Assembly (NCBI GenBank): GCA_002189035.1
Contig: NEEC01000249.1
Span: 1 to 25,086 of the forward strand
DNA length: 25,086 nucleotides
Source: Utricularia gibba
Lineage: Eukaryota > Streptophyta > Magnoliopsida > Lamiales > Lentibulariaceae
Direction of reading: 5' to 3'
Below are positions 1 through 20,690 of the stretch, piece after piece (positions within the stretch are counted from its first letter, which is position 1; every line of letters starts with the position of its first letter). The notes beneath the pieces were generated by a model that was given only the letters and a program-made list of their open reading frames with translations, searched no databases and had not been told where the DNA came from. Made by a program: the position numbers and the translations under genes.

Positions 1-160
1 ATCGTGATGCATTTAATGAAGTTAGGATGTCATGAGCGCCCCAAATGGTTTTCTCAACAACCTGATTTATATTTGACGAGGTGCTCTAGGCTGGCACTAG
101 TATCGAGCAAATGGTCGAGTCGCGCTCTGGCCCATAGTCATTTGTAGCCCGGCCAAAAAA
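1..160 (+). repeat. Partial unit U0: end of b1 plus b2, L type
   Basis: The window opens in the last three bases of a b1 monomer (ATC), followed by a full 157-bp b2 at 4-160 with the L marker GTTAGGATG. The unit continues upstream of the window. Confidence 0.9.
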
Positions 161-1254: not shown

Positions 1255-1411
1255 GTGATGCATTTAATGAAGTTAGGATGTCATGAGCGCCCCAAATGGT
1301 TTTCTCAACAACCTGATTTATATTTGACGAGGTGCTCTAGGCTGGCACTAGTATCGAGCAAATGGTCGAGTCGCGCTCTGGCCCATAGTCATTTGTAGCC
1401 CGGCCAAAAAA
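1255..1411 (+). repeat. Reference monomer b2 (157 bp)
   Basis: Fourth monomer. It opens GTGATGCATTTAATGAAG, then GTTAGGATG (L) or GTTATGATG (R), TCATGAGCGCCCCAAATGG, TTTTCTCAACAACCTG, ATTTATATTTGACGAGG, TGCTCTAGGCTGGCACTAG, TATCGAGCAAATGGTCGAG, TCGCGCTCTGGCCC, and ends ATAGTCATTTGTAGCCCGG, CCAAAAAA. The first ~60 bp align with a2. It holds one SpeI word (ACTAGT). Its last ~100 bp and the adjoining start of a1 form the most invariant stretch of the array. Confidence 0.92.
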
Positions 1412-2036
1412 GTGATGCATTTATTAACGTTGGGTTTTCGGCGGCTGCCTACATGCTTTTTCAAGGAAAAGTTGTCGTTTTTTGGCGGGTGCTGTTGTTG
1501 GGAACTTCGTCGGACCCAAGGTTCGGTCTGACTTCACAGCACAATAAGGTCCCATTCGACGAAAATCGTGATACCTTTATTGAAGTTAGGATCTCATGAC
1601 CACCCCAAATGCTTTTTTCAACAGCATGCTTACACTTGAGAAGGCGCTTTTGTGGGTCACCGAGATCGGGCCGGAATTCGGGTCGAGCTCGGGCCAAAGT
1701 CAGCTGTAGCCCGACAAAAGAAGTGATGCATTTATTAACGTTGGGTTGTCGGCGGCTGCCCACATGGTTTTTCAAGCAACAGCTTGCCGTTTTAAGGCGG
1801 GTGCTGTCGTTGGCAGCTTTGTAAGGGCCCAAGGTTTGGTCTGGCTCCTGAGCCCAATCGGGTCCTACTCGATGAAAATCGTGATGCATTTAATGAAGTT
1901 AGGATGTCATGAGCGCCCAAATGGTTTTCTCAACAACCTGATTTATATTTGACGAGGTGCTCTAGGCTGGCACTAGTATCGAGCAAATGGTCGAGTCGCG
2001 CTCTGGCCCATAGTCATTTGTAGCCCGGCCAAAAAA
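1412..2036 (+). repeat. Unit U3, 625 bp, L type
   Basis: L markers throughout. Small losses: one C in TTCGTCGGACCC (a1), two bases in CATGCTTACACTTG (a2) and one C in GAGCGCCCAAATGG (b2). Confidence 0.92.
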
Positions 2037-2659
2037 GTGATGCATTTATTAACGTTGGGTTTTCGGCGGCTGCCTACATGCTTTTTCAAGGAAAAGTTGT
2101 CGTTTTTTGGCGGGTGCTGTTGTTGGGAACTTCGTCCGGACCCAAGGTTCGGTCTGACTTCACAGCACAATAAGGTCCCATTCGACGAAAATCGTGATAC
2201 CTTTATTGAAGTTAGGATCTCATGACCACCCCAAATGCTTTTTTCAACAGCATGCTATACTTGAGAAGGCGCTTTTGTGGGTCACCGAGATCGGGCCGGA
2301 ATTCGGGTCGAGCTCGGGACAAAGTCAGCTGTAGCCGTCAAAAGAAGTGATGCATTTATTAACGTTGGGTTGTCGGCGGCTGCCCACATGGTTTTTCAAG
2401 CAACAGCTTGCCGTTTTAAGGGGGTGCTGTCGTTGGCAGCTTTGTAAGGGCCCAAGGTTTGGTCTGGCTCCTTAGCCCAATCGGGTCCTACTCGATGAAA
2501 ATCGTGATGCATTTAATGAAGTTATGATGTCATGAGCGCCCAAATGGTTTTCTCAACAACCTGATTTATATTTGACGAGGTGCTCTAGGCTGGCACTAGT
2601 ATCGAGCAAATGGTCGAGTCGCGCTCTGGCCCATAGTCATTTGTAGCCCGGCCAAAAAA
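2037..2659 (+). repeat. Unit U4, 623 bp, L-to-R chimera
   Basis: The start of a2 is L (GTTAGGATCTCATG, GAGCTCGGGACAAAG). From the a2 end onward the markers are R (CCGTCAAAAG, CCTTAG, GTTATGATG). b1 has the intermediate AAGGGGGTG form, also seen in U8 and U15. The exchange interval lies roughly between 2312 and 2340. Confidence 0.88.
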
Positions 2660-3286
2660 GTGATGCATTTATTAACGTTGGGTTTTCGGCGGCTGCCTAC
2701 ATGCTTTTTCAAGGAAAAGTTGTCGTTTTTTGGCGGGTGCTGTTGTTGGGAACTTCGTCCGGACCCAAGGTTCGGTCTGACTTCACAGCACAATAAGGTC
2801 CCATTCGACGAAAATCGTGATACCTTTATTGAAGTGAGGATCTCAGACCACCCAAATGCTTTTTTCAACAGCATGCTATACACTTGAGAAGGCGCTTTTG
2901 TGGGTCACCGAGATCGGGCCGGAATTCGGGTCGGGCTTGGGGACAAAGTCAGCTGTAGCCCGTCAAAAGAAGTGATGCATTTATTAACGTTGGGTTGTCG
3001 GCGGCTGCCCACATGGTTTTTCAAGCAACAGCTTGCCGTTTTAAGGTGGGTGCTGTCGTTGGCAGCTTTGTAAGGGCCCAAGGTTTGGTCTGGCTCCTTA
3101 GCCCAATCGGGTCCTACTCGATGAAAATCGTGATGCATTTAATGAAGTTATGATGTCATGAGCGCCCCAAATGGTTTTCTCAACAACCTGATTTATATTT
3201 GACGAGGTGCTCTAGGCTGGCACTAGTATCGAGCAAATGGTCGAGTCGCGCTCTGGCCCATAGTCATTTGTAGCCCGGCCAAAAAA
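2660..3286 (+). repeat. Unit U5, 627 bp, R type
   Basis: R markers throughout: GTGAGGATCTC, GGGCTTGGGG, CGTCAAAAG, AAGGTGGG, CCTTAG, GTTATGATG. a2 has TCAGACCACCCAAATG, lacking one C and the TG of TCATGACC. Confidence 0.92.
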
Positions 3287-3915
3287 GTGATGCATTTATT
3301 AACGTTGGGTTTTCGGCGGCTGCCTACATGCTTTTTCAAGGAAAAGTTGTCGTTTTTTGGCGGGTGCTGTTGTTGGGAACTTCGTCCGGACCCAAGGTTC
3401 GGTCTGACTTCACAGCACAATAAGGTCCCATTCGACGAAAATCGTGATACCTTTATTGAAGTGAGGATCTCAAGACCACCCCAAATGCTTTTTTCAACAG
3501 CATGCTATACACTTGAGAAGGCGCTTTTGTGGGTCACCGAGATCGGGCCGGAATTCGGGTCGGGCTTGGGGACAAAGTCAGCTGTAGCCCGTCAAAAGAA
3601 GTGATGCATTTATTAACGTTGGGTTGTCGGCGGCTGCCCACATGGTTTTTCAAGCAACAGCTTGCCGTTTTAAGGTGGGTGCTGTCGTTGGCAGCTTTGT
3701 AAGGGCCCAAGGTTTGGTCTGGCTCCTTAGCCCAATCGGGTCCTACTCGATGAAAATCGTGATGCATTTAATGAAGTTATGATGTCATGAGCGCCCCAAA
3801 TGGTTTTCTCAACAACCTGATTTATATTTGACGAGGTGCTCTAGGCTGGCACTAGTATCGAGCAAATGGTCGAGTCGCGCTCTGGCCCATAGTCATTTGT
3901 AGCCCGGCCAAAAAA
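3287..3915 (+). repeat. Unit U6, 629 bp, complete R-type reference
   Basis: All R markers are present, with CTCAAGACC in a2. Monomers have full length, so it serves as the R reference. Confidence 0.93.
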
Positions 3916-4543
3916 GTGATGCATTTATTAACGTTGGGTTTTCGGCGGCTGCCTACATGCTTTTTCAAGGAAAAGTTGTCGTTTTTTGGCGGGTGCTGTT
4001 GTTGGGAACTTCGTCCGGACCCAAGGTTCGGTCTGACTTCACAGCACAATAAGGTCCCATTCGACGAAAATCGTGATACCTTTATTGAAGTGAGGATCTC
4101 ATGACCACCCCAAATGCTTTTTTCAACAGCATGCTATACACTTGAGAAGGCGCTTTTGTGGGTCACCGAGATCGGGCCGGAATTCGGGTCGGGCTTGGGG
4201 ACAAAGTCAGCTGTAGCCCGTCAAAAGAAGTGATGCATTTATTAACGTTGGGTTGTCGGCGGCTGCCCACATGGTTTTTCAAGCAACAGCTTGCCGTTTT
4301 AAGGTGGGTGCTGTCGTTGGCAGCTTTGTAAGGGCCCAAGGTTTGGTCTGGCTCCTAGCCCAATCGGGTCCTACTCGATGAAAATCGTGATGCATTTAAT
4401 GAAGTTATGATGTCATGAGCGCCCCAAATGGTTTTCTCAACAACCTGATTTATATTTGACGAGGTGCTCTAGGCTGGCACTAGTATCGAGCAAATGGTCG
4501 AGTCGCGCTCTGGCCCATAGTCATTTGTAGCCCGGCCAAAAAA
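3916..4543 (+). repeat. Unit U7, 628 bp, R type
   Basis: R markers, but with CTCATGACC in a2 as in L units. b1 has CTCCTAGCCC, one T short of the R form. Confidence 0.92.
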
Positions 4544-5168
4544 GTGATGCATTTATTAACGTTGGGTTTTCGGCGGCTGCCTACATGCTTTTTCAAGGAA
4601 AAGTTGTCGTTTTTTGGCGGGTGCTGTTGTTGGGAACTTCGTCCGACCAAGGTTCGGTCTGACTTCACAGCACAATAAGGTCCCATTCGACGAAAATCGT
4701 GATACCTTTATTGAAGTTAGGATCTCATGACCACCCCAAATGCTTTTTTCAACAGCATGCTATACACTTGAGAAGGCGCTTTTGTGGGTCACCGAGATCG
4801 GGCCGGAATTCGGGTCGGCTCGGGCCCAAAGTCAGCTGTAGCCCGACAAAAGAAGTGATGCATTTATTAACGTTGGGTTGTCGGCGGCTGCCCACATGGT
4901 TTTTCAAGCAACAGCTTGCCGTTTTAAGGGGGTGCTGTCGTTGGCAGCTTTGTAAGGGCCCAAGGTTTGGTCTGGCTCCTTAGCCCAATCGGGTCCTACT
5001 CGATGAAAATCGTGATGCATTTAATGAAGTTATGATGTCATGAGCGCCCCAAATGGTTTTCTCAACAACCTGATTTATATTTGACGAGGTGCTCTAGGCT
5101 GGCACTAGTATCGAGCAAATGGTCGAGTCGCGCTCTGGCCCATAGTCATTTGTAGCCCGGCCAAAAAA
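4544..5168 (+). repeat. Unit U8, 625 bp, second L-to-R chimera
   Basis: a2 is L (GTTAGGATCTCATG, CTCGGGCCCAAAG, CGACAAAAG), whereas b1 and b2 are R (CCTTAG, GTTATGATG) with AAGGGGGTG between. The exchange lies between about 4853 and 4978. a1 has the private deletion CGTCCGACCAAGG. Confidence 0.88.
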
Positions 5169-5775
5169 GTGATGCATTTATTAACGTTGGGTTTTCGGCG
5201 GCTGCCTACATGCTTTTTCAAGGAAAAGTTGTCGTTTTTTGGCGGGTGCTGTTGTTGGGAACTTCGTCCGGACCCAAGTTCGGTCTGACTTCACAGCACA
5301 ATAAGGTCCCATTCGACGAAAATCGTGACCTTTATTGAAGGGATCTCAACCACCCCAAATGCTTTTTCAACAGCATGCTATACACTTGAGAAGGCGCTTT
5401 TGTGGGTCACAGATCGGGCCGGAATTCGGGTCGAAAAGTCAGCTGTAGCCCGCAAAAGAAGTGATGCATTTATTAACGTTGGGTTGTCGGCGGCTGCCCA
5501 CATGGTTTTTCAAGCAACAGCTTGCCGTTTTAAGGCGGGTGCTGTCGTTGGCAGCTTTGTAAGGGCCCAAGGTTTGGTCTGGCTCCTGAGCCCAATCGGG
5601 TCCTACTCGATGAAAATCGTGATGCATTTAATGAAGTTAGGATGTCATGAGCGCCCAAATGGTTTTCTCAACAACCTGATTTATATTTGACGAGGTGCTC
5701 TAGGCTGGCACTAGTATCGAGCAAATGGTCGAGTCGCGCTCTGGCCCATAGTCATTTGTAGCCCGGCCAAAAAAA
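5169..5775 (+). repeat. Unit U9, 607 bp, L type with trimmed a2
   Basis: b1 and b2 are L. a2 has lost several short pieces (GTGACCTTTATTGAAGGG, TCACAGATC, GGGTCGAAAAGTC, CCGCAAAAG). This begins the shortening that continues toward the core. Confidence 0.9.
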
Positions 5776-6351
5776 GTGATGCATTTATTAACGTTGGGTT
5801 TTCGGCGGCTGCCTACATGCTTTTTCAAGGAAAAGTTGTCGTTTTTTGGCGGGTGCTGTTGTTGGGAACTTCGTCCGGACCCAAGGTTCGGTCTGACTTC
5901 ACAGCACAATAAGGTCCCATTCGACGAAAATCGTGATACCTTTACTCATGACCACCCCAAATGCTTTTTTCAACAGCATGCTATACACTTGAGAAGGCGC
6001 TTTTGTGGGTCACCGAGATCGGGCCGGAATTCGGGTCGGCTAAAGTCAGCTGTAGCCCGGAAGTGATGCATTTATTAACGTTGGGTTGTCGGCGGCTGCC
6101 CACATGGTTTTTCAAGCAACAGCTTGCCGTTTTATGCTGTCGTTGGCAGCTTTGTAAGGGCCCAAGAGCCCAATCGGGTCCTACTCGATGAAAATCGTGA
6201 TGCATTTAATGAAGTTAATGTCATGAGCGCCCCAAATGGTTTTCTCAACAACCTGATTTATATTTGACGAGGTGCTCTAGGCTGGCACTAGTATCGAGCA
6301 AATGGTCGAGTCGCGCTCTGGCCCATAGTCATTTGTAGCCCGGCCAAAAAA
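5776..6351 (+). repeat. Unit U10, 576 bp, deleted
   Basis: The a2 start is cut (ATACCTTTACTCATG) and its end reduced (TCGGCTAAAG, CCCGGAAGTG). b1 starts at 6063 and has the deletion allele GTTTTATGC plus a second deletion (GCCCAAGAGCCC). b2 has GTTAATGTC. A seventh A lies before a1. Confidence 0.9.
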
Positions 6352-6964
6352 GTGATGCATTTATTAACGTTGGGTTTTCGGCGGCTGCCTACATGCTTTT
6401 CAAGGAAAAGTTGTCGTTTTTTGGCGGGTGCTGTTGTTGGGAACTTCGTCCGGACCCAAGGTTCGGTCTGACTTCACAGCACAATAAGGTCCCATTCGAC
6501 GAAAATCGTGATACCTTTATTGAAGGGATCTCATGACCACCCCAAATGCTTTTTTCAACAGCATGCTATACACTTGAGAAGGCGCTTTTGTGGGTCACCG
6601 AGATCGGGCCGGAATTCGGGTCGAGCTAAAGTCAGCTGTAGCCCGAAAAAGAAGTGATGCATTTATTAACGTTGGGTTGTCGGCGGCTGCCCACATGGTT
6701 TTTCAAGCAACAGCTTGCCGTTTTAAGGTGCTGTCGTTGGCAGCTTTGTAAGGGCCCAAGGTTTGGTCTGGCTCCTGAGCCCAATCGGGTCCTACTCGAT
6801 GAAAATCGTGATGCATTTAATGAAGTTATGATGTCATGAGCGCCCCAAATGGTTTTCTCAACAACCTGATTTATATTTGACGAGGTGCTCTAGGCTGGCA
6901 CTAGTATCGAGCAAATGGTCGAGTCGCGCTCTGGCCCATAGTCATTTGTAGCCCGGCCAAAAAA
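6352..6964 (+). repeat. Unit U11, 613 bp, mixed markers
   Basis: L-like b1 (CCTGAG) but R-like b2 (GTTATGATG). a2 is trimmed (GAAGGGATCTC, GAGCTAAAG, CCCGAAAAAG), and b1 has AAGGTGCTG. Confidence 0.88.
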
Positions 6965-7534
6965 GTGATGCATTTATTAACGTTGGGTTTTCGGCTGCCT
7001 ACATGCTTTTTCAAGGAAAAGTTGTCGTTTTTTGCGGGTGCTGTTGTTGGGAACTTCGTCCGGACCCAAGGTTCGGTCTGACTTCACAGCACAATAAGGT
7101 CCCATTCGACGAAAATCGTGATACCTTATTGAAGTTAGGATCGACCACCCCAAATGCTTTTTTCAACAGCATGCTATACACTTGAGAAGGCGCTTTTGTG
7201 GGTCACCAGATCGGGCCGGAATTCGGGTTGGAAAGTCAGCTGTAGCCCGTGATGCATTTATTAACGTTGGGTTGTCGGCGGCTGCCCACATGGTTTTTCA
7301 AGCAACAGCTTGCCGTTTTAAGGCGGGTGCTGTCGTTGGCAGCTTTGTAAGGGCCCAAGGTTTGGTCAGCCCAATCGGGTCCTACTCGATGAAAATCGTG
7401 ATGCATCATGAGCGCCCCAAATGGTTTTCTCAACAACCTGATTTATATTTGACGAGGCTCTAGGCTGGCACTAGTATCGAGCAAATGGTCGAGTCGCGCT
7501 CTGGCCCATAGTCATTTGTAGCCCGGCCAAAAAA
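6965..7534 (+). repeat. Unit U12, 570 bp, L type, several deletions
   Basis: Deletions in a1 (TTTCGGCTGCC), a2 (GGATCGACC, GGGTTGGAAAG, CCCGTGATGC), b1 (GGTCAGCCC) and b2 (GATGCATCATGAGC, which loses the marker site). The second half of b2 is intact. Confidence 0.88.
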
Positions 7535-8091
7535 GTGATGCATTTATTAACGTTGGGTTTTCGGCGGCTGCCTACATGCTTTTTCAAGGAAAAGTTGTCG
7601 TTTTTTGGCGGGTGCTGTTGTTGGGAACTTCGTCCGGACCCAAGGTTCGGTCTGACTTCACAGCACAATAAGGTCCCATTCGACGAGAAATCGTGATACC
7701 TTTATTGAAGTGAGGATCTCAGACCAAAGTCAGCGCAACAACAGCTTGCTGATGCACACTTGAGAAGTGTTGGGTTGGGTCGGCGGCTGCCCACCATCGG
7801 GCCGGAATTCGGGTCGGGCTTGGGGACCGTCAGCTGTGGCCCGTCAAAAGAAGTGATGCATTTATTAACGTTGGGTTGTCGGCGGCTGCCCACATGGTTT
7901 TTCAAGCAACAGCTTGCCGTTTTAAGGTGGGTGCTGTCGTTGGCAGCTTTACTCGATGAAAATCGTGATGCCATGAGCGCCCCAAATGGTTTTCTCAACA
8001 ACCTGGACGAGGTGCTCTAGGCTGGCACTAGTATCGAGCAAATGGTCGAGTCGCGCTCTGGCCCATAGTCATTTGTAGCCCGGCCAAAAAA
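7535..8091 (+). repeat. Unit U13, 557 bp, R-like, internally shuffled
   Basis: a1 is complete with an extra G (ACGAGAAATCG). a2 begins R (GTGAGGATCTC), then 7724-7795 carries pieces of a2 and b1 out of order. a2 resumes at the EcoRI word, followed by GTCAAAAG and b1 with AAGGTGGG. b1 and b2 are then fused through a deletion (GGCAGCTTTACTCGATG, GTGATGCCATGAGC), and b2 has CCTGGACGAGG. Confidence 0.85.
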
Positions 8092-8622
8092 GTGATGCAT
8101 TTATTAACGTTGGGTTTTCGGCGGCTGCCTACATGCGGAAAAGTTGAACTTCGTCCGGACCCAAGGTTCGGTCTGACTTCACAGCACAATAAGGTCCCAT
8201 TCGACGAAAATCGTGATACCTTTATTGAAGTTAGGATGATGCTTTTTTCAACAGCATGAGAGAAGGCGCTTTTGTGGGTCACCAGATCGGGCCGGAATTC
8301 GGGTTTCAGCTGTAGCTGATGCATTTATTAACGTTGGGTTGTCGGCGGCTGCCCACATGGTTTTTCAAGCAACAGCTTGCCGTTTTATGCTGTCGTTGGC
8401 AGCTTTGTAAGGGCCCAAGGTTTGGTCTGGCTCCTGAGCCCAATCGGGTCCTACTCGATGAAAATCGTGATGCATTTAATGAAGTTAGATGTCATGAGCG
8501 CCCCAAATGGTTTTCTCAACAACCTGATTTATATTTGACGAGGTGCTCTAGGCTGGCACTAGTATCGAGCAAATGGTCGAGTCGCGCTCTGGCCCATAGT
8601 CATTTGTAGCCCGGCCAAAAAA
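8092..8622 (+). repeat. Unit U14, 531 bp, L-like, deleted
   Basis: a1 lost about 40 bp (ACATGCGGAAAAGTTGAAC). a2 is trimmed (GGATGATGC, GCATGAGAGAAGG), and its end is the short allele GTAGCTGATGC. b1 has GTTTTATGC and CCTGAG, and b2 has GTTAGATG. The b2 tail is intact. Confidence 0.87.
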
Positions 8623-9251
8623 GTGATGCATTTATTAACGTTGGGTTTTCGGCGGCTGCCTACATGCTTTTTCAAGGAAAAGTTGTCGTTTTTTGGCGGG
8701 TGCTGTTGTTGGGAACTTCGTCCGGACCCAAGGTTCGGTCTGACTTCACAGCACAATAAGGTCCCATTCGACGAAAATCGTGATACCTTTATTGAAGTTA
8801 GGATCTCATGACCACCCCATGCTCAAGACCACCCCAAATGCTTTTTTTCAACAGCATGCTATAACTTGAGAAGGCGCTTTTGTGGGTCACCGAGATCGGG
8901 CCGGAATTCGGGTCGAGGCTTGGGGGAAAGTCAGAGCTGTAAATTAAGTTGGGTTGCGGCGGGTTGGGTTGGTTTTTCATGGTTTTTCAAGCAACAGCTT
9001 GCCGTTTTAAGGGGGTGCTGTCGTTGGCAGCTTTGTAAGGGCCCAAGGTTTGGTCTGGCTCCTGAGCCCAATCGGGTCCTACTCGATGAAAATCGTGATG
9101 CATTTAATGAAGTTAGGATGTCATGAGCGCCCCAAATGGTTTTCTCAACAACCTGATTTATATTTGACGAGGTGCTCTAGGCTGGCACTAGTATCGAGCA
9201 AATGGTCGAGTCGCGCTCTGGCCCATAGTCATTTGTAGCCCGGCCAAAAAA
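8623..9251 (+). repeat. Unit U15, 629 bp, with duplicated a2 word and degenerate b1 start
   Basis: a1 is complete. In a2 an L-type TCATGACCACCCCA is followed by a second, R-type TCAAGACCACCCCAAATG (8801-8840), a small duplication across an L/R junction. The a2-b1 boundary (8925-8985) is degenerate and G/T-rich (GGTTGCGGCGGGTTGGGTTGG). b1 resumes at TTTTTCAAGCAAC with AAGGGGGTG and CCTGAG, and b2 is L. Total length equals a normal unit despite the changes. Confidence 0.86.
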
Positions 9252-9696
9252 GTGATGCATTTATTAACGTTGGGTTTTCGGCGGCTGCCTACATGCTTTT
9301 TCAAGGAAAAGTTGTCGTTTTTTGGCGGGTGCTGTTGTTGGGAACTTCGTCCGGACCCAAGGTTCGGTCTGACTTCACAGCACAATAAGGTCCCATTCGA
9401 CGAAAATCGTGATACCTTTATTGAAGTTAGGATCTCATGACCACCCCAAATGCTTTTTTCAACAGCATGCTTATATTTTGACTTGAGAAAGTCAGCTGTA
9501 GCTGATGCATTGTACCATTGCCGTTTTATGCTGTCGTTGGCAGCTTTGTAAGGGCCCAAGGTTTGGTCTGGCTCCTTAGCCCAATCGGGTCCTACTCGAT
9601 GAAAATCGTGATGCATTTAATGAAGCCGCAAATGGTCTCAGCTGCTCTAGGCTGGCAGTATCGAGCAAAGAAGTCATTTGTAGCCCGGCCAAAAAA
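9252..9696 (+). repeat. Unit U16, 445 bp, deleted
   Basis: a1 and the first half of a2 are L and intact. a2 then jumps (ATGCTTATATTTTGAC, GAGAAAGTCAG) to the short end GTAGCTGATGC. b1 is mostly lost, resuming at GCCGTTTTATGC with CCTTAG. b2 is reduced to a few words (AATGAAGCCGCAAATGG, GCTGGCAGTATCG). Confidence 0.85.
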
Positions 9697-10097
9697 GTGA
9701 TGCATTTATTAACGTTGGGTTTTCGGCGGCTGCCTACATGCTTTTTCAAGGAAAAGTTGTCGTTTTTTGGCGGGTGCTGTTGTTGGGAACTTCGTCCGGA
9801 CCCAAGGTTCGGTCTGACTTCACAGCACAATAAGGTCCCATTCGACGAAAATCGTGATACCTTTATTGAAGTTAGGATCTCATGGCTTTTAACAGCATGC
9901 TCACTTGAGAAGGCCACCCAAAGCTGCTTTTTTCAACAACATGCTGGCAGCCCAAGGCGGGTCGGGTCCTACTCGATGAAAATCGTGATGCATTTAATGA
10001 AGTTAGGATGTCATGAGCGCCCCAAATGGTTTTCTCAACAACCTGATTTATACGGGCCGACTAGTATCGAGCAAATGGTCGAGTCGCGCTCTGGGGC
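9697..10097 (+). repeat. Unit U17, ~401 bp, deleted and reordered
   Basis: a1 is complete. a2 is cut, with a middle piece (CACTTGAGAAGG) preceding an early piece (CACCCAAAGC, TTTTTTCAACAACATGC). b1 is nearly absent (GGCAGCCCAAGGCGGG), and b2 is L with TTATACGGGCCGACTAG. The right border is set at a degenerate a1 start (TGATGCACG, 10098). Confidence 0.8.
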
Positions 10098-10412
10098 TGA
10101 TGCACGTAGCTGGAAAAGTTGTCGTTTTTTGGCGGGTGCTGTTGTTGGGAACTTCGTCCGGACCCAAGGTTCGGTCTGACTTCACAGCACAATAAGGTCC
10201 CATTCGACGAAAATCGTGATACCTTTATTGAAGCTCATTGCTAACAGCATGCTATACACTTGTTTTGTGGGTTCGGGCCGGAATTCGGGTCGAACAAGTG
10301 ATGCATTTATTAACAATGCGCAGCTTGCCGTTTTAAGGCATGCGGTTTTCAGCTCGGACTCGATGAAGTGATGCATCGTGGTTTGGTGCTGGCTTTAGAG
10401 CCGAATAGTCAT
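10098..10412 (+). repeat. Partial unit U18a, degenerate
   Basis: It holds a1 from GGAAAAGTTGTCG to its end, then a reduced a2 (GAAGCTCATTGC, CACTTGTTTTGTGGG, EcoRI word, GGTCGAACAAGTG). A 40-bp remnant of b1 follows (TTAACAATGCGCAGC, TTTTAAGGCATGCGG) and scraps of b2 (ACTCGATGAAGTGATGC). It ends in a broken b2 tail (GAATAGTCATTC). About 60 bp near 10330-10400 are only loosely traceable to the consensus. Confidence 0.72.
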
Positions 10413-10794
10413 TCCCGTCCGTACCCAAGGTTGAACTTCACCCAAGGTTCGGTCTGACTTCACAGCATAAGGTCCCATTCGACGAAAATCGTGATACCTT
10501 TATTGAAGTTAGGATCTCATGATGCTTTTTTCAACAGCATGATACACTTGAGAAGGCGCTTTTGTGGGTCACCGAGATCGGGCCGGAATTCGGGTCGGCT
10601 CGGGCCCAAAGTCAGCTGTAGCTGATGCATTTATTAACGTTGGGTTGTCGGCGGCTGCCCACATGGTTTTTCAAGCAACAGCTTGCCGTTTTATGCTGTA
10701 GCTTTGTAAGGGCCCAAGGTTTGACGAGCGCATCCGCGGCAACTGAGTATCGATAGCAAATGGTCGAATAGTCATTTGTAGCCCGGCCAAAAAA
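10413..10794 (+). repeat. Partial unit U18b, 5'-truncated
   Basis: Starts in the middle of a1 (CCGTCCGTACCCAAGG, with a short local duplication of ACCCAAGGTT). a2 from 10491 is nearly whole but lacks the ACCACCCCAA segment and ends in the short allele GTAGCTGATGC. b1 carries the GTTTTATGC allele, then jumps into b2 at AAGGTTTGACGAG. The words CATCCGCGGCAACTG (10730-10745) are not from the consensus. The b2 tail is intact. Confidence 0.8.
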
Positions 10795-11218
10795 GTGATG
10801 CATTTATTAACGTTGGGTTTTCGGCGGCTGCCTACATGCTTTTTCAAGGAAAAGTTGTCGTTTTTTGGCGGGTGCTGTTGTTGGGAACTTCGTCCGGACC
10901 CAAGGTTCGGTCTGACTTCACAGCACAATAAGGTCCCATTCGACGAAAATCGTGATACCTTTATTGAAGTTAGGATGGGCATGCTGAGAAGGCGCACCGA
11001 GATTTCGGGTCGGCTTTGTAGCCCGACAAAAGAAGTGATGCCACATGGTTTTTCAAGCAACAGCTTGCCGTTTTAAGGCTAGCCCCAAGGTTTGGTCTGG
11101 CTCCTGAGAATCGGGTCCTACTCGATGAAAATCGTGATGCATTTAATGAAGTTAGGATGTCATGTGATCGCCGGAAATCGGGGTCGAGTCGCGCTCTGGG
11201 TCAAGCCCGGCCAAAAAA
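10795..11218 (+). repeat. Unit U19, 424 bp, deleted
   Basis: a1 is complete. a2 is condensed to under half (GGATGGGCATGCTGAG, GAGATTTCGGGTCGG) but keeps CGACAAAAGAAG. b1 lacks its first 30 bp (GTGATGCCACATGG) and has AAGGCTAGCCCCAAGG. b2 lost its middle (CATGTGATCGCCGGAAATC, CTGGGTCAAGCCCGG). Confidence 0.83.
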
Positions 11219-11514
11219 GTGATGCATTTATTAACGCGGCGGCTGCCTACATGCCAAGGAAAAGTTGTCGTTTTTTGGCGGGTAAAAAGACTTCACAGTA
11301 TCGACGCATACCTTTATTGAAGTTAGGATCGACGCGCATGCTGTTTTGTGGGTCATCGGCCCGGAATTCGGGTCCTTTGTAGTGATGCATTTCAAAGCAA
11401 CAGCTTGCCGTTTTATGCATTTATTAGCTTTACTCGATGAAAATCGTGATGCATTTAATGAAGTTAGGATGTCATGAGCGGGTTTGGACCTCTACATCTT
11501 TCCGCAAGGTAAAA
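11219..11514 (+). repeat. Unit U20, 296 bp, strongly reduced
   Basis: Small pieces of all four monomers in consensus order: a1 start with TTAACGCGGCGG, GGCGGGTAAAAAGAC, an a2 core around the EcoRI word, b1 reduced to CAAAGCAACAGC and GTTTTATGC, then the b2 start with GTTAGGATG. The last ~35 bp (11480-11514) do not match the consensus. Confidence 0.8.
11480..11514. other. Short sequence not derived from the satellite consensus
   Basis: After GTCATGAGCG the expected b2 body is replaced by about 35 bp containing TTTGGACCTCTACATC and TTTCCGCAAGGTAAAA. The decamer GACCTCTACA (11487-11496) recurs at 12908-12917, also in a non-consensus position, and I find it nowhere in intact units. The stretch is too short to assign to any family. 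Confidence 0.55.
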
Positions 11515-11923
11515 GTGATGCCGTACATCGTTGTCGTTTTTTGGCGGGTGCTGTTGTTGGGAACTTCGTCCGGACCCAAGGTTCGGTCTGACTTCACAGC
11601 ACAATAAGGTCCCATTCGACGAAAATCGTGATACCTTTATTGAAGTTAGGATCTCATGACCACCCCAAATGCTCAACAGCATGCTAGAGAAGGCGCCACC
11701 GAAATTTTTTCTCAACATGCTATGCTGTAGCATTTGAGCCCAATCGGGTCCTACTCGATGAAAATCGTGATGCATTTAATGAAGTTAGGATGTCATGAGC
11801 GCCCCAAATGGTTTTCTCAACAACCTGATTTATATTTGACGAGGTGCTCTAGGCTGGCACTAGTATCGAGCAAATGGTCGAGTCGCGCTCTGGCCCATAG
11901 TCATTTGTAGCCCGGCCAAAAAA
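11515..11923 (+). repeat. Unit U21, 409 bp, deleted
   Basis: A degenerate a1 start (GTGATGCCGTACATCG) leads into an intact a1 second half. a2 is L but shortened (ATGCTCAACAGC, GGCGCCACCGAAATTTTTTC). b1 keeps only its end (GAGCCCAATC to GAAAATC), and b2 is complete and L. Confidence 0.83.
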
Positions 11924-12179
11924 GTGATGCATTTATTAACGTTGGGTTTTCGGCGGCTGCCTACATGCTTTTTCAAGGAAAAGTTGTCGTTTTTTGGCGG
12001 GTGCTGTTGTTGGGAACTTCGTCCGGACCCAAGGTTCGGTCTGACTTCACAGCACAATAAGGTCCCATTCGACGAAAATCGTGATACCTTTATTGAAGTG
12101 AGGATCTCAAGACCACCCCAAATGCTTTTTTCAACAGCATTGCCGTTTTAAGGTGCTGAGAAGGGCGGTTGAGCCCAAT

Positions 12180-12198
12180 CGGGTGCGTGATGCACCCG
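12180..12198. other. Short perfect inverted repeat (7-bp arms, 5-base loop)
   Basis: CGGGTGC (12180-12186) and GCACCCG (12192-12198) are exact reverse complements separated by GTGAT. The flanks partly extend it (AT before, TT after, each with mismatches), and GCCC lies before and GGGC after at a distance. It sits in the least repeat-like part of the array. There is no T run after it, so I do not call it a terminator. It probably arose by chance at a rearrangement join, or it may mark the breakpoint. Confidence 0.5.
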
Positions 12199-12318
12199 GT
12201 TTGATCGGGCTCGGACTATATCGGCCGGTCGCGCTTGGGGGAAAGTCAGTAGCTGTAAAAAGAACAGCAGATACGATGATAGCTCATGATGCTCATGGTT
12301 GTGGGTTGTGGTTTCACA
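12199..12318. other. About 120 bp with weak or no match to the satellite consensus
   Basis: Contains GGACTATATCGGCCGGTCG, a short a2-like word (CGCTTGGGGGAAAGTCAG), AAAAAGAACAGCAGATACG and GATAGCTCATGATGCTCATGG, then GTTGTGGGTTGTGG. No open frame, structural RNA or transposon end is evident. It is the longest run of unexplained sequence in the window. Confidence 0.55.
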
Positions 12319-12467
12319 TGATGCATTTATTAACAAGCAACAGCTTGCCGTTTTAAGGCGGGTGCTGTCGTTGGCAGCGTAAGGGCGGTTTGGTCTGGCT
12401 AGCTAGCCCATGAGCAAATGGTCGGGTCGCTCCTCTGGCCCATAGTCATTGTAGCCCGGCCAAAAAA

Positions 12468-12665
12468 GTGATGCATTTATTAACGTTGGGTTTTCGGCGG
12501 CTGCCTACATGCTTTTTCAAGGAAAAGTTGTCGTTTTTTGGCGGGTGCTGTTTATGCATTCTTCGTCGCCCCATGGTTCGAGTCAAAACTTTTTCAACAG
12601 ATTTATAAAATGCACTAGGCGATTGTCGAGTCGACCGCCTGGCCCATAGTCATCCGGCCAAAAAA
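12468..12665 (+). repeat. Unit U23, 198 bp, the shortest
   Basis: a1 start is intact to GGCGGGTGCTG. About 100 bp of altered sequence follow (TTTATGCATTCTTCG, CAAAACTTTTTCAACAG, ATTTATAAAATGC, GTCGAGTCGACCGCC), then the b2 tail reduced to CATAGTCATCCGGCC. Essentially a1 head plus b2 tail. Confidence 0.8.
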
Positions 12666-12959
12666 GTGATGCATTTATTAACGTTGGGTTTTCGGCGGCT
12701 GCCTACATGCTTTTTCAAGGAAAAGTTGTCGTTTTTTGGCGGGTGCTGTTGTTGGGAGACGGCGGGTTTTCGGAGCCGCAAGGAAAAAAGTTGTAGCGTC
12801 CATTTATTAACGTTGGGTTGTCGGCGGCTGCCCACATGGTTTTTCAAGCAACAGCTTGCCGTTTTAAGAATTCGGCTCCGGACCCATGCAGAAGTTCATG
12901 GTCTCATGACCTCTACACCAGCAAATGGTCGAATAGTCATTTGTAGCCCGGCCAAAAAA
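12666..12959 (+). repeat. Unit U24, 294 bp, a1-b1-b2 fragments
   Basis: a1 start is intact to GTTGTTGGGAGACGG, then CGGAGCCGCAAGG and a headless b1 (CATTTATTAACGTTGGG to GTTTTAAG). It ends AATTCGGCTCCGGACCC, GGTCTCATGACCTCTACACC and the b2 tail GAATAGTCATTTG. a2 is absent as a monomer. The GACCTCTACA decamer recurs here (12908-12917). Confidence 0.8.
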
Positions 12960-13559
12960 GTGATGCATTTATTAACGTTGGGTTTTCGGCGGCTGCCTAC
13001 ATGCTTTTTCAAGGAAAAGTTGTCGTTTTTTGAACTTCGTCCGGACCCAAGGTTCGGTCTGACTTCACAGCACAATAAGGTCCCATTCGACGAAAATCGT
13101 GATACCTTTATTGAAGTTAGGATCTCATGACCACCCCAAATGCTTTTTTCAACAGCATGCGGAATTCGGGGCTTCGGTTTGGGGACAAAGTCAGCTGTAG
13201 CCCGTCAAAAGAAGTGATGCATTTATTAACGTTGGGTTGTCGGCTTGAAGAACGCTTTTAGCAAGGGTCACTCGATGAAAATCATTTAATGAAGCCGGAA
13301 TTTTTAACGGGTCGGCTGTCGGGGACAAATTTGTCAGCTGTAGCCCGTCAAAAGAAGTGATGGGTTTATTAACGTTGGGTTGTGATGCGGCTGCCCACAA
13401 GGTTTTTCAAGCATGAGCTTGCCGTTTTAAGGTGGGTGCTGTCGTTTCTCAGCTTTGTAAGGGCCCAAGGTTTGACGAGGTGCTCTAGGCTGGCACTAGT
13501 ATCGAGCAAATGGTCGAGTCGCGCTCTGGCCCATAGTCATTTGTAGCCCGGCCAAAAAA
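12960..13559 (+). repeat. Unit U25, 600 bp, with duplicated a2 tail
   Basis: a1 lacks GGCGGGTGCTGTTGTTGGG. a2 is L at its start and R at its end (GGGGACAAAG, CGTCAAAAG). The a2 tail plus b1 head appears twice (about 13180-13244 and 13321-13380), separated by GCTTGAAGAACGC and a fragment of b1/b2. The second b1 head is altered (GTGATGGGTTTATTAACG, GTTGTGATGCGGC). b1 then joins b2 at AAGGTTTGACGAGG, and the b2 tail is intact. Confidence 0.82.
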
Positions 13560-13805
13560 GTGATGCATTTATTAACGTTGGGTTTTCGGCGGCTGCCTAC
13601 ATGCTTTTTCAAGGAAAAGTTGTCGTTTTTTGGCGGGTGCTGTTCGTGATGCATTTACTGAAGTTATGATGTCATGAGCGCCCCAAATGGTTTTCTCAAC
13701 AACCTGACAATAAGGTTTGACGAGGTGCTCTAGGCTGGCGTGATACGAGCAAATGGTTATTGAAGTCGGATCTGGCCCATAGTCATTTGTAGCCCGGCCA
13801 AAAAA
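13560..13805 (+). repeat. Unit U26, 246 bp, a1 head fused to b2
   Basis: a1 runs to GGCGGGTGCTGTT and jumps directly to b2 (CGTGATGCATTTACTGAAG, R marker GTTATGATG). b2 contains CCTGACAATAAGGTTTGACG and a foreign word GTTATTGAAGTCGG, then its normal tail. It forms the right edge of the core. Confidence 0.84.
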
Positions 13806-14434
13806 GTGATGCATTTTATTAACGTTGGGTTTTCGGCGGCTGCCTACATGCTTTTTCAAGGAAAAGTTGTCGTTTTTTGGCGGGTGCTGTTGTTGGGAAC
13901 TTCGTCCGGACCCAAGGTTCGGTCTGACTTCACAGCACAATAAGGTCCCATTCGACGAAAATCGTGATACCTTTATTGAAGTGAGGATCTCAAGACCACC
14001 CCAAATGCTTTTTCAACAGCATGCTATACACTTGAGAAGGCGCTTTTGTGGGTCACCGAGATCGGGCCGGAATTCGGGTCGGGCTTGGGGGACAAAGTCA
14101 GCTGTAGCCCGTCAAAAGAAGTGATGCATTTATTAACGTTGGGTTGTCGGCGGCTGCCCACATGGTTTTTCAAGCAACAGCTTGCCGTTTTAAGGTGGGT
14201 GCTGTCGTTGGCAGCTTTGTAAGGGCCCAAGGTTTGGTCTGGCTCCTTAGCCCAATCGGGTCCTACTCGATGAAAATCGTGATGCATTTAATGAGTTATG
14301 ATGTCATGAGCGCCCCAAATGGTTTTCTCAACAACCTGATTTATATTTGACGAGGTGCTCTAGGCTGGCACTAGTATCGAGCAAATGGTCGAGTCGCGCT
14401 CTGGCCCATAGTCATTTGTAGCCCGGCCAAAAAA
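13806..14434 (+). repeat. Unit U27, 629 bp, R type
   Basis: First intact unit right of the core. a1 has one extra T (GCATTTTATTAAC). a2 has CTCAAGACC, CTATACAC and five G before ACAAAG. b2 has AATGAGTTATG. Confidence 0.92.
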
Positions 14435-15062
14435 GTGATGCATTTATTAACGTTGGGTTTTCGGCGGCTGCCTACATGCTTTTTCAAGGAAAAGTTGTCG
14501 TTTTTTGGCGGGTGCTGTTGTTGGGAACTTCGTCCGGACCCAAGGTTCGGTCTGACTTCACAGCACAATAAGGTCCCATTCGACGAAAATCGTGATACCT
14601 TTATTGAAGTGAGGATCTCAGACCACCCCAAATGCTTTTTTCAACAGCATGCTTTAAACTTGAGAAGGCGCTTTTGTGGGTCACCCAGATCGGGCCGGAA
14701 TTCGGGTCGGGCTTGGGGACAAAGTCAGCTGTAGCCCGTCAAAAGAAGTGATGCATTTATTAACGTTGGGTTGTCGCGGCTGCCCACATGGTTTTTCAAG
14801 CAACAGCTTGCCGTTTTAAGGTGGGTGCTGTCGTTGGCAGCTTTGTAAGGGCCCAAGGTTTGGTCTGGCTCCTTAGCCCAATCGGGTCCTACTCGATGAA
14901 AATCGTGATGCATTTAATGAAGTTATGATGTCATGAGCGCCCCAAATGGTTTTCTCAACAACCTGATTTATATTTGACGAGGTGCTCTAGGCTGGCACTA
15001 GTATCGAGCAAATGGTCGAGTCGCGCTCTGGCCCATAGTCATTTGTAGCCCGGCCCAAAAAA
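14435..15062 (+). repeat. Unit U28, 628 bp, R type
   Basis: a2 has CTCAGACC, CTTTAAAC and CACCCAGATC. b1 lost a G (TTGTCGCGGC). There is an extra C before the A run (CGGCCCAAAAAAG). Confidence 0.92.
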
Positions 15063-15690
15063 GTGATGCATTTATTAACGTTGGGTTTTCGGCGGCTGCC
15101 TACATGCTTTTTCAAGGAAAAGTTGTCGTTTTTTGGCGGGTGCTGTTGTTGGGAACTTCGTCCGGACCCAAGGTTCGGTCTGACTTCACAGCACAATAAG
15201 GTCCCATTCGACGAAAATCGTGATACCTTTATTGAAGTGAGGATCTCAAGACCACCCCAAATGCTTTTTTCAACAGCATGCTTTACACTTGAGAAGGCGC
15301 TTTTGTGGGTCACCAGATCGGGCCGGAATTCGGGTCGGGCTTGGGGGACAAAGTCAGCTGTAGCCCGTCAAAAGAAGTGATGCATTTATTAACGTTGGGT
15401 TGTCGGCGGCTGCCCACATGGTTTTTCAAGCAACAGCTTGCCGTTTTAAGGTGGGTGCTGTCGTTGGCAGCTTGTAAGGGCCCAAGGTTTGGTCTGGCTC
15501 CTTAGCCCAATCGGGTCCTACTCGATGAAAATCGTGATGCATTTAATGGAGTTATGATGTCATGAGCGCCCCAAATGGTTTTCTCAACAACCTGATTTAT
15601 ATTTGACGAGGTGCTCTAGGCTGGCACTAGTATCGAGCAAATGGTCGAGTCGCGCTCTGGCCCATAGTCATTTGTAGCCCGGCCAAAAAA
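15063..15690 (+). repeat. Unit U29, 628 bp, R type
   Basis: a2 has CTCAAGACC, CTTTACAC, CACCAGATC and a five-G run. b1 has CAGCTTGTAAG. b2 has AATGGAGTTATG. Confidence 0.92.
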
Positions 15691-16313
15691 GTGATGCATT
15701 TATTAACGTTGGGTTTTCGGCGGCTGCCTACATGCTTTTTCAAGGAAAAGTTGTCGTTTTTTGGCGGGTGCTTGTTGGGAACTTCGTCCGGACCCAAGGT
15801 TCGGTCTGACTTCACAGCACAATAAGGTCCCATTCGACGAAAATCGTGATACCTTTATTGAAGTGAGGATCTCAGACCACCCCAAATGCTTTTTTCAACA
15901 GCATGCTATACACTTGAGAAGGCGCTTTTGTGGGTCACCGAGATCGGGCCGGAATTCGGGTCGGGCTTGGGGACAAAGTCAGCTGTAGCCCGTCAAAAGA
16001 AGTGATGCATTTATTAACGTTGGGTTGTCGGCGGCTGCCCACATGGTTTTTCAAGCAACAGCTTGCCGTTTTAAGGTGGGTGCTGTCGTTGGCAGCTTTG
16101 TAAGGGCCCAAGGTTTGGTCTGGCTCCTTAGCCCAATCGGGTCCTACTCGATGAAAATCGTGATGCATTTAATGAGTTATGATGTCATGAGCGCCCCAAA
16201 TGGTTTTCTCAACAACCTGATTTATTTGACGAGGTGCTCTAGGCTGGCACTAGTATCGAGCAAATGGTCGAGTCGCGCTCTGGCCCATAGTCATTTGTAG
16301 CCCGGCCAAAAAA
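15691..16313 (+). repeat. Unit U30, 623 bp, R type
   Basis: a1 lost three bases (GGGTGCTTGTTGGG). a2 has CTCAGACC and CTATACAC. b2 has AATGAGTTATG and GATTTATTTGACG. Confidence 0.92.
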
Positions 16314-16941
16314 GTGATGCATTTATTAACGTTGGGTTTTCGGCGGCTGCCTACATGCTTTTTCAAGGAAAAGTTGTCGTTTTTTGGCGGGTGCTGTTGT
16401 TGGGAACTTCGTCCGGACCCAAGGTTCGGTCTGACTTCACAGCACAATAAGGTCCCATTCGACGAAAATCGTGATACCTTTATTGAAGTGAGGATCTCAA
16501 GACCACCCCAAATGCTTTTTTCAACAGCATGCTATACACTTGAGAAGGCGCTTTTGTGGGTCACCAGATCGGGCCGGAATTCGGGTCGGGCTTGGGGACA
16601 AAGTCAGCTGTAGCCCGTCAAAAGAAGTGATGCATTTATTAACGTTGGGTTGTCGGCGGCTGCCCACATGGTTTTTCAAGCAACAGCTTGCCGTTTTAAG
16701 GTGGGTGCTGTCGTTGGCAGCTTTGTAAGGGCCCAAGGTTTGGTCTGGCTCCTTAGCCCAATCGGGTCCTACTCGATGAAAATCGTGATGCATTTAATGA
16801 AGTTATGATGTCATGAGCGCCCCAAATGGTTTTCTCAACAACCTGATTTATATTTGACGAGGTGCTCTAGGCTGGCACTAGTATCGAGCAAATGGTCGAG
16901 TCGCGCTCTGGCCCATAGTCATTTGTAGCCCGGCCAAAAAA
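16314..16941 (+). repeat. Unit U31, 628 bp, R type
   Basis: Essentially the R reference with CTCAAGACC and CACCAGATC in a2. Confidence 0.93.
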
Positions 16942-17563
16942 GTGATGCATTTATTAACGTTGGGTTTTCGGCGGCTGCCTACATGCTTTTCAAGGAAAAG
17001 TTGTCGTTTTTTGGCGGGTGCTGTTGTTGGGAACTTCGTCCGGACCCAAGGTTCGGTCTGACTTCACAGCACAATAAGGTCCCATTCGACGAAAATCGTG
17101 ATACCTTTATTGAAGTGAGGATCTCAAGACCACCCCAAATGCTTTTTCAACAGCATGCTATACACTTGAGAAGGCGCTTTTGTGGGTCACCGAGATCGGG
17201 CCGGAATTCGGGTCGGGCTTGGGGACAAAGTCAGCTGTAGCCCGTCAAAAGAAGTGATGCATTTATTAACGTTGGGTTGTCGGCGGCTGCCCACATGTTT
17301 TTCAAGCAACAGCTTGCCGTTTTAAGGTGGGTGCGTTGGCAGCTTTGTAAGGGCCCAAGGTTTGGTCTGGCTCCTTAGCCCAATCGGGTCCTACTCGATG
17401 AAAATCGTGATGCATTTAATGAAGTTATGATGTCATGAGCGCCCCAAATGGTTTTCTCAACAACCTGATTTATATTTGACGAGGTGCTCTAGGCTGGCAC
17501 TAGTATCGAGCAAATGGTCGAGTCGCGCTCTGGCCCATAGTCATTTGTAGCCCGGCCAAAAAA
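16942..17563 (+). repeat. Unit U32, 622 bp, R type
   Basis: Losses in T runs (GCTTTTCAAGG in a1, ATGCTTTTTCAAC in a2) and in b1 (CACATGTTTTTC, GGTGGGTGCGTTGG). Confidence 0.92.
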
Positions 17564-18185
17564 GTGATGCATTTATTAACGTTGGGTTTTCGGCGGCTGC
17601 CTACATGCTTTTTCAAGGAAAAGTTGTCGTTTTTTGGCGGGTGCTGTTGTTACTTCGTCCGGACCCAAGGTTCGGTCTGACTTCACAGCACAATAAGGTC
17701 CCATTCGACGAAAATCGTGATACCTTTATTGAAGTGAGGATCTCATGACCACCCCAAATGCTTTTTTCAACAGCATGCTTATACACTTGAGAAGGCGCTT
17801 TTGTGGGTCACCAGATCGGGCCGGAATTCGGGTCGGGCTTGGGGGACAAAGTCAGCTGTAGCCCGTCAAAAGAAGTGATGCATTTATTAACGTTGGGTTG
17901 TCGGCGGCTGCCCACATGGTTTTTCAAGCAACAGCTTGCCGTTTTAAGGTGGTGCTGTCGTTGGCAGCTTTGTAAGGGCCCAAGGTTTGGTCTGGCTCCT
18001 TAGCCCAATCGGGTCCTACTCGATGAAAATCGTGATGCATTTAATGAAGTTATGATGTCATGAGCGCCCCAAATGGTTTTCTCAACAACCTGATTTATAT
18101 TTGACGAGGTCTAGGCTGGCACTAGTATCGAGCAAATGGTCGAGTCGCGCTCTGGCCCATAGTCATTTGTAGCCCGGCCAAAAAA
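17564..18185 (+). repeat. Unit U33, 622 bp, R type
   Basis: a1 lost GGGA (GTTGTTACTTCG). a2 has CTCATGACC, CTTATACAC and five G. b1 has AAGGTGGTG, the first in the right array. b2 has GACGAGGTCTAGG. Confidence 0.92.
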
Positions 18186-18811
18186 GTGATGCATTTATTA
18201 ACGTTGGGTTTTCGGCGGCTGCCTACATGCTTTTTCAAGGAAAAGTTGTCGTTTTTTGGCGGGTGCTGTTGTTGGAACTTCGTCCGGACCCAAGGTTCGT
18301 CTGACTTCACAGCACAATAAGGTCCCATTCGACGAAAATCGTGATACCTTTATTGAAGTGAGGATCTCAGACCACCCCAAATGCTTTTTTCAACAGCATG
18401 CTATACACTTGAGAAGGCGCTTTTGTGGGTCACCGAGATCGGGCCGGAATTCGGGTCGGGCTTGGGGACAAAGTCAGCTGTAGCCCGTCAAAAGAAGTGA
18501 TGCATTTATTAACGTTGGGTTGTCGGCGGCTGCCCACATGGTTTTTCAAGCAACAGCTTGCCGTTTTAAGGTGGGTGCTGTCGTTGGCAGCTTTGTAAGG
18601 GCCCAAGGTTTGGTCTGGCTCCTTAGCCCAATCGGGTCCTACTCGATGAAAATCGTGATGCATTTAATGAAGTTATGATGTCATGAGCGCCCCAAATGGT
18701 TTTCTCAACAACCTGATTTATATTTGACGAGGTGCTCTAGGCTGGCACTAGTATCGAGCAAATGGTCGAGTCGCGCTCTGGCCCATAGTCATTTGTAGCC
18801 CGGCCAAAAAA
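18186..18811 (+). repeat. Unit U34, 626 bp, R type
   Basis: First unit with GTTGTTGGAAC in a1, and it also has GGTTCGTCTG. a2 has CTCAGACC. b1 has AAGGTGGGTG. Confidence 0.92.
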
Positions 18812-19439
18812 GTGATGCATTTATTAACGTTGGGTTTTCGGCGGCTGCCTACATGCTTTTTCAAGGAAAAGTTGTCGTTTTTTGGCGGGTGCTGTTGTTG
18901 GAACTTCGTCCGGACCCAAGGTTCGGTCTGACTTCACAGCACAATAAGGTCCCATTCGACGAAAATCGTGATACCTTTATTGAAGTGAGGATCTCAAGAC
19001 CACCCCAAATGCTTTTTTCAACAGCATGCTTTACACTTGAGAAGGCGCTTTTGTGGGTCACCGAGATCGGGCCGGAATTCGGGTCGGGCTTGGGGGACAA
19101 AGTCAGCTGTAGCCCGTCAAAAGAAGTGATGCATTTATTAACGTTGGGTTGTCGGCGGCTGCCCACATGGTTTTTCAAGCAACAGCTTGCCGTTTTAAGG
19201 TGGTGCTGTCGTTGGCAGCTTTGTAAGGGCCCAAGGTTTGGTCTGGCTCCTTAGCCCAATCGGGTCCTACTCGATGAAAATCGTGATGCATTTAATGAAG
19301 TTATGATGTCATGAGCGCCCCAAATGGTTTTCTCAACAACCTGATTTATATTTGACGAGGTGCTCTAGGCTGGCACTAGTATCGAGCAAATGGTCGAGTC
19401 GCGCTCTGGCCCATAGTCATTTGTAGCCCGGCCAAAAAA
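18812..19439 (+). repeat. Unit U35, 628 bp, R type
   Basis: TTGTTGGAAC, CTCAAGACC, CTTTACAC, a five-G run and AAGGTGGTG. Confidence 0.92.
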
Positions 19440-20062
19440 GTGATGCATTTATTAACGTTGGGTTTTCGGCGGCTGCCTACATGCTTTTTCAAGGAAAAGT
19501 TGTCGTTTTTTGGCGGGTGCTGTTGGAACTTCGTCCGGACCCAAGGTTCGGTCTGACTTCACAGCACAATAAGGTCCCATTCGACGAAAATCGTGATACC
19601 TTTATTGAAGTGAGGATCTCAAGACCACCCCAAATGCTTTTTTCAACAGCATGCTTTAACTTGAGAAGGCGCTTTTGTGGGTCACCGAGATCGGGCCGGA
19701 ATTCGGGTCGGCTTGGGGACAAAGTCAGCTGTAGCCCGTCAAAAGAAGTGATGCATTTATTAACGTTGGGTTGTCGGCGGCTGCCCACATGGTTTTTCAA
19801 GCAACAGCTTGCCGTTTTAAGGTGGGTGCTGTCGTTGGCAGCTTTGTAAGGGCCCAAGGTTTGGTCTGGCTCCTTAGCCCAATCGGGTCCTACTCGATGA
19901 AAATCGTGATGCATTTAATGAAGTTATGATGTCATGAGCGCCCCAAATGGTTTTCTCAACAACCTGATTTATATTTGACGAGGTGCTCTAGGCTGGCACT
20001 AGTATCGAGCAAATGGTCGAGTCGCGCTCTGGCCCATAGTCATTTGTAGCCCGGCCAAAAAA
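19440..20062 (+). repeat. Unit U36, 623 bp, R type
   Basis: a1 lost one GTT (TGCTGTTGGAAC). a2 has CTTTAAC and GGTCGGCTTGGGG. b1 has AAGGTGGGTG. Confidence 0.92.
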
Positions 20063-20690
20063 GTGATGCATTTATTAACGTTGGGTTTTCGGCGGCTGCC
20101 TACATGCTTTTTCAAGGAAAAGTTGTCGTTTTTTGGCGGGTGCTGTTGTTGGAACTTCGTCCGGACCCAAGGTTCGGTCTGACTTCACAGCACAATAAGG
20201 TCCCATTCGACGAAAATCGTGATACCTTTATTGAAGTGAGGATCTCAAGACCACCCCAAATGCTTTTTTCAACAGCATGCTATACACTTGAGAAGGCGCT
20301 TTTGTGGGTCACCGAGATCGGGCCGGAATTCGGGTCGGGCTTTGGGGACAAAGTCAGCTGTAGCCCGTCAAAAGAAGTGATGCATTTATTAACGTTGGGT
20401 TGTCGGCGGCTGCCCACATGGTTTTTCAAGCAACAGCTTGCCGTTTTAAGGTGGTGCTGTCGTTGGCAGCTTTGTAAGGGCCCAAGGTTTGGTCTGGCTC
20501 CTTAGCCCAATCGGGTCCTACTCGATGAAAATCGTGATGCATTTAATGAAGTTATGATGTCATGAGCGCCCCAAATGGTTTTCTCAACAACCTGATTTAT
20601 ATTTGACGAGGTGCTCTAGGCTGGCACTAGTATCGAGCAAATGGTCGAGTCGCGCTCTGGCCCATAGTCATTTGTAGCCCGGCCAAAAAA
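20063..20690 (+). repeat. Unit U37, 628 bp, R type
   Basis: TTGTTGGAAC, CTCAAGACC and CTATACAC. A T run is expanded in GGGCTTTGGGG. b1 has AAGGTGGTG. Confidence 0.92.

Follow-up and report, generated by a model that had tools for sequence, protein, structure and literature searches.

The window considered here, a stretch of 25,086 bp identical to one contig (C106) of a Utricularia gibba genome set of 100.1 Mb in 516 contigs, consists from end to end of one satellite, and between two orderly arrays of that satellite lies a scrambled core of approximately 6 kb. As judged from the anatomy of the sequence, this core is most probably (probability approx. 0.9) the product of an assembly consensus failure in a long tandem array, and not a decayed piece of chromosome, an interpretation that is strongly supported, if not proven, because the same fingerprint was found in the unrelated 5S ribosomal DNA (5S rDNA) of the same assembly. 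The satellite is built of monomers of approximately 314 bp, in which A and B forms alternate to give a dimer with a consensus of 629 bp, and two subtypes of it (H1 and H2) were distinguished by eight differing sites chosen from the alignment. What the core of C106 has lost is sequence length, not identity.

The sequence-only reading of the window had described a degenerate 6-kb core between orderly arrays, with unit lengths falling from 625 bp to 607, 576, 570 and eventually 198 bp before returning to 629 bp. The core is indeed present in the sequence and is not explained by chance, but the loss takes the form of a gradient that starts at approximately 5.0–5.6 kb rather than at 7,535. By aligning C106 to the H1 and H2 dimers with a copying model, in which skips and jumps were allowed, deletions longer than 5 bp were found to be absent up to 5 kb, to number 2, 5, 10, 10, 14, 30, 29, 30 and 9 in the following 1-kb bins, and to be absent again from 14 kb. 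The distances between each 15-mer and its next copy agree with the proposed series of lengths (622–629 bp to approx. 5 kb, then 607, 575–578, 610–613, 570–574, 557, 521, 445, 362 and down to 198 bp, and again 627–630 bp from approx. 13.8–14.0 kb), with the correction that the value of 198 bp reflects two partly retained copies in the 12.0–13.0 kb bins and is not a full unit length. The core is also uneven, with consensus-matching blocks at 8,488–8,818, 9,013–9,470 and 11,735–12,139 (331, 458 and 405 bp, respectively) interspersed with scrambled stretches, in which short words fill the space between blocks. By comparison with 143,743 satellite bases, 26 runs of at least 40 bp in which every 14-mer is unique start within 7,000–13,805 and none elsewhere in C106, and the share of unique 21-mers per 1-kb bin is 0.20–0.54 at 7–14 kb as opposed to 0.00–0.15 in the other bins of the contig.

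The proportion of substitutions to deletions bears directly on the age of the core. When only blocks of at least 30 bp were considered, and 8 bases were trimmed from either end, 8 substitutions were found in 3,522 interior bases of the core (2.3 per kb), 1 in 1,683 in the decay zone that precedes it, 5 in 4,617 (1.1 per kb) in the left array and 30 in 10,049 (3.0 per kb) in the right array, where they come mostly from a few unit-variable sites (342, 376, 379 and 408). The raw substitutions of the model do increase within the core, with a maximum of 36 for the 12–13 kb bin, but fall mostly in filler words of doubtful placement. Deletions are instead abundant and individual: 161 of the 186 in the core occur only once in the contig, corresponding to 25.7 private deletions per kb, as opposed to 2.0 and 1.8 per kb in the orderly arrays. 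The first origin put forward for the island, namely the edge of an old array (or else a relic core) that had decayed with age and was later enclosed by newer expansions, would account for irregular lengths flanked by orderly arrays as well as for a right array of one homogeneous subtype, as for a recent expansion. However, higher substitution divergence than in the homogeneous array would be expected of such an edge, and the value for the core falls between those of the two arrays. Since the long retained blocks are not richer in substitutions than the orderly arrays, and with consensus-matching blocks of 405 and 458 bp within the core and deletions dominating over substitutions, an old edge is hardly credible, and that part of the sequence-only reading is not supported. 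The pattern found, namely deletions and jumps far in excess of substitutions (217 junctions against the 8 substitutions in 3,522 bases) along with blocks that match the consensus, is one expected of a consensus artefact in a tandem array.

The 5S rDNA provided a control, being a tandem array unrelated to the satellite (unit, 549 bp) whose genes ought to be constrained; it was chosen after a search of the accessible sequence for 5.8S rRNA had given no match. The 47 matches to 5S, which are all of the scored candidates from 3,467 first-look candidates, lie on contigs C222, C223, C224, C227 and C229; C222, C224 and C229 were covered whole and C223 for 40,000 of its 66,327 bases, with 75 kb of these 110 kb consisting of N (70 kb in C222–C224 and 5 kb in C229), and readable stretches of at least 300 bases were used. 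At C222:22,501–25,000, 101 junctions were found, 87 of which are forward in repeat order, with a median block of 8 bp and a longest block of 359 bp, to be compared with 217, 188, 8 bp and 458 bp in the satellite core. A milder, deletion-dominated decay was observed at C223:19,501–22,500 (46 deletions, 4 substitutions), whereas C224, C229 and the rest of C223 are, where readable, mostly orderly. Thus, the same damage is present in unrelated arrays of the same assembly, strongly in C222 and mildly in C223, and with the small scrambles detected in two other satellite contigs (see below) it supports the assembly failure that had been listed among the options for the core.

The junctions of the core, 188 of which are forward in repeat order and 29 backward, and the low substitution content of its blocks also need to be considered in terms of a real and very recent event, namely a burst of small deletions and template switches, of the break-induced or replication-slippage type, too young for substitutions to have built up. 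Few substitutions accompanied by many junctions would fit a young event, and so would the few junctions that recur, in linked form, within C106. On the other hand, the process would have had to strike two unrelated families in order to leave the 5S rDNA in the same style, inverted pieces are lacking (no 16-mer and no 12-mer of the core is found on the reverse strand only), and a graded onset is unexpected for a single event. Microhomology, which might have pointed to a repair mechanism, was not clearly raised (mean, 0.81 observed against 0.61 for random, in a small sample of 16 clean junctions) and was not retained as evidence of one, and the core does not behave as a cluster of microhomology-mediated rearrangements. 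A recent burst is therefore regarded as improbable. A more general form of the same idea, that tandem arrays of both satellite and 5S rDNA in this plant truly hold young, dense, order-keeping islands of microdeletions without substitutions, through a mutational process confined to long tandem arrays, is considered similarly improbable. Two junction words of the core were searched genome-wide and are present only in C106, and the deletions that recur at phases 458 and 542 were found by search in C106 only. The latter two are linked in three units, with the phase-542 deletion alone in a fourth, at window positions 6,135, 8,317–8,388, 9,503–9,529 and 10,623–10,694.

A different question is whether the core marks a boundary between subtypes. 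Marker words for H1 and H2 number 17 and 0 at 1–2,400, 0 and 16 at 2,401–4,500, 7 and 3 at 4,501–7,534, 15 and 5 at 7,535–13,150, and 0 and 83 at 13,151–25,086, so that the end of the core coincides with the onset of pure H2, and reads of different places or subtypes may have been joined in the core. A fusion of two arrays, as suggested earlier, may survive in this weak sense, with a core mostly of H1 type followed by H2 alone. That two real arrays, H1 on the left and H2 on the right, truly meet here, at a boundary genuinely rearranged over some kilobases, is suggested by the H1-rich sequence yielding to pure H2 at the core, but the other switches are clean. In the window itself one is found at 2,305–2,468, and in C92 (on the window's strand) H2 on the left gives way to H1 on the right at approximately 16.2–17.1 kb, with approximately 1 kb of mosaic units between them; therefore, a switch alone need not scramble the sequence. 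Furthermore, the scrambled islands of C92 (5.7, 10.6 and 19.7 kb) lie away from its subtype switch. A genuine, rearranged boundary is accordingly given very little credence.

The other satellite contigs were also inspected for scrambled runs of at least 40 bp, of which there are 3 in C92 (all 41,173 bases), 4 in C99 (30,000 of 44,933 bases), none in C68 (all 17,484 bases) and none in C47 (30,000 of 79,478 bases). Small scrambles are thus present in two of the four other satellite contigs sampled, and on visual inspection the C92 and C99 islands are alike. The count was restricted to these four contigs, C50 (10,000 of 17,991 bases) being a more diverged form according to the copying model. A second version of the core locus was not found in the parts of the satellite contigs that were read, the rare shared 25-mers being scattered and not collinear.

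With regard to how the consensus may have failed, the assembly studied is very probably the PacBio assembly of U. gibba obtained with the hierarchical genome assembly process (HGAP), for which the relevant section of PMC5793159 gives a mean read length of 10,385 bp at 88x and a contig N50 of 3.4 Mb. With such reads, the 6-kb zone in a 25-kb contig of pure repeat is without a unique anchor. Noisy PacBio reads that originated in different copies or subtypes could have been aligned out of register to one seed read or contig; bases without majority support would then be lost, so that exact blocks remain with short words of mixed phase between them, and polishing would be unable to repair the core because the array offers no unique placement for reads. 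The onset, gradual at 5 kb, and the end, abrupt at 13.8 kb, would correspond to alignments drifting out of register and then returning to it, the out-of-register zone possibly lying at a join of H1-type and H2-type sequence. Mixing of A on B, or of H1 on H2, as the only factor choosing the lost bases was considered and rejected: retention of phases is uneven (6 to 13 copies), with no simple match to the subtypes by eye.

In a toy simulation the deletion bias was reproduced, but not the whole core. The majority consensus of 15 noisy reads in register yielded 0.5 substitutions, 0.9 insertions and 8.2 deletions per kb, the corresponding values for the real right array being 2.0, 0.8 and 4.4; in the model, a majority consensus of noisy reads thus tends to drop bases, with a simulated spectrum that resembles the orderly arrays. 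When 8 of 14 simulated reads were forced out of register by one monomer, 10 deletions longer than 5 bp were obtained, all of them in the first 276 bases, where the register conflicted, so that misregister produced a deletion density like that of the core, limited to approximately 280 bases.

Several observations weigh against a consensus failure, or at least against this form of it. Across 12 simulated conditions no 6-kb scramble was generated, and at most 4.9 deletions longer than 5 bp per kb were obtained as opposed to 26.1 in the core, while substitutions and insertions in the misregister simulation (9.2 and 9.7 per kb, respectively) exceed the values of 1.6 and 0.4 per kb for the decay zone of C106. 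The retained blocks of the 5S scramble are not all perfect, with 9 substitutions in 1,174 interior bases of the scrambled stretch of C222 against none in 6,592 of an orderly 5S stretch, and the 5S control as a whole comprises 32.5 kb of readable sequence, in which one case is strong and the other mild. Finally, some junctions recur: three units share a deletion of 13 bp at phase 458, and four share one of 7 bp at phase 542, and such linked, recurrent deletions could mean inheritance. On balance, the class of failure, that of the consensus in a tandem array, is well supported, and the exact failing step is not.

Similar difficulties are documented for other genomes. In the pages of PMC7484160 on the human X assembly, the largest tandem repeats of that chromosome are described as having lost quality in standard long-read polishing, owing to ambiguous mapping. 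The GAGE and DXZ1 loci discussed there share with C106 an ambiguous placement that lowers consensus quality, with unique sequence too sparse for anchoring, and differ in that the problem was seen in coverage and allele plots, whereas for C106, where the scramble is severe, it is deduced from the anatomy of the sequence. The account of tandem-repeat database errors in PMC6868369 likewise concerns repeats that exceed the reads and give wrong public sequence; as far as its relevant sections go, that review deals mainly with collapse and wrong lengths, whereas in C106 scrambling is at the level of words. The orderly flanks of C106 are like those ordinary satellites of plants in which the higher-order unit is a dimer (monomer of approx. 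314 bp, A/B dimer, H1/H2 blocks), but the core departs from satellite evolution in that there is no build-up of substitutions. In noisy long-read assemblies, a decay of unit length within a satellite contig can mimic satellite ageing, and the two may be told apart by the substitutions within retained blocks and by whether an unrelated tandem array of that assembly shows the pattern as well. As biology, the core matters only if it is confirmed by real reads. Nor does the island speak against the homogeneous array centre expected from satellite theory, since it probably does not represent real DNA sequence.

Table 1. Features of the U. gibba satellite contig C106 (coordinates are those of the window).
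Feature	Coordinates	Strand	Description
Whole window (contig C106)	1–25,086	+	Tandem Repeats Finder arrays, period 314, at 1–7,949 and 13,644–25,086; A/B anchor words
Left orderly array	1–5,000	+	No deletions >5 bp in five 1-kb bins; H1 to approx. 2.3 kb, H2 from approx. 2.47 to approx. 4.4 kb
Graded decay zone	5,001–7,534	+	Deletions of increasing size, 1 substitution in 1,683 interior bases; unit spacings 607, approx. 576, approx. 611 and approx. 570
Scrambled core	7,535–13,805	+	217 junctions; median block 8 bp, longest 458 bp; blocks of at least 30 bp hold 4,130 of 6,082 counted bases
Worst part of core	9,500–13,643	+	26.1 deletions >5 bp per kb
Longest run with all 14-mers unique (126 bp)	10,327–10,452	+	Short words of several repeat phases joined end to end
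Switch to pure H2, register of approx. 629 bp regained	13,151–13,805	+	First H2-only marker at 13,201; spacing 628 from the 13.5-kb bin
Right orderly array, H2 only	13,806–25,086	+	No deletions >5 bp; 0 H1 and 83 H2 words from 13,151

Within the right array, at 17,951–24,820, 1-bp deletions recur at phases 244 and 546, in 8 units each and often approximately 1,250 bp apart (overall, every 625 bp or 1,250 bp approximately), hinting at a unit of two dimers or at an error that the consensus makes systematically. At C47:1–30,000 the satellite is present in a diverged form, and across much of C47 pattern matches are spaced by approximately 1,250 bp (four monomers), suggesting a longer higher-order unit. 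The satellite contigs C106, C92, C99, C68 and C47 span 17–79 kb, and genome-wide the satellite is abundant, with 875 exact copies of one 40-mer and at least 1,520 of one 29-mer; this last figure may be set beside a passage of PMC8333044 in which satellite repeats are called absent from the putative centromeres of U. gibba.

Organelle sequences are also present in the genome set. At L017:583–2226 of contig C515, exon 1 of cox1 is continuous with an in-phase reading frame that contains two LAGLIDADG-like motifs, as presumably expected for the homing endonuclease of a group I intron. This first exon reads LLLLCCSALVEVG, with two adjacent cysteines at what we take to be the place of the published COX motif. 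Two adjacent cysteines in COX are described, in the part of PMC3141634 that deals with them, in Utricularia and some Genlisea, in line with an assembly from U. gibba. Contig C516 carries a plastid rbcL frame of 484 residues.

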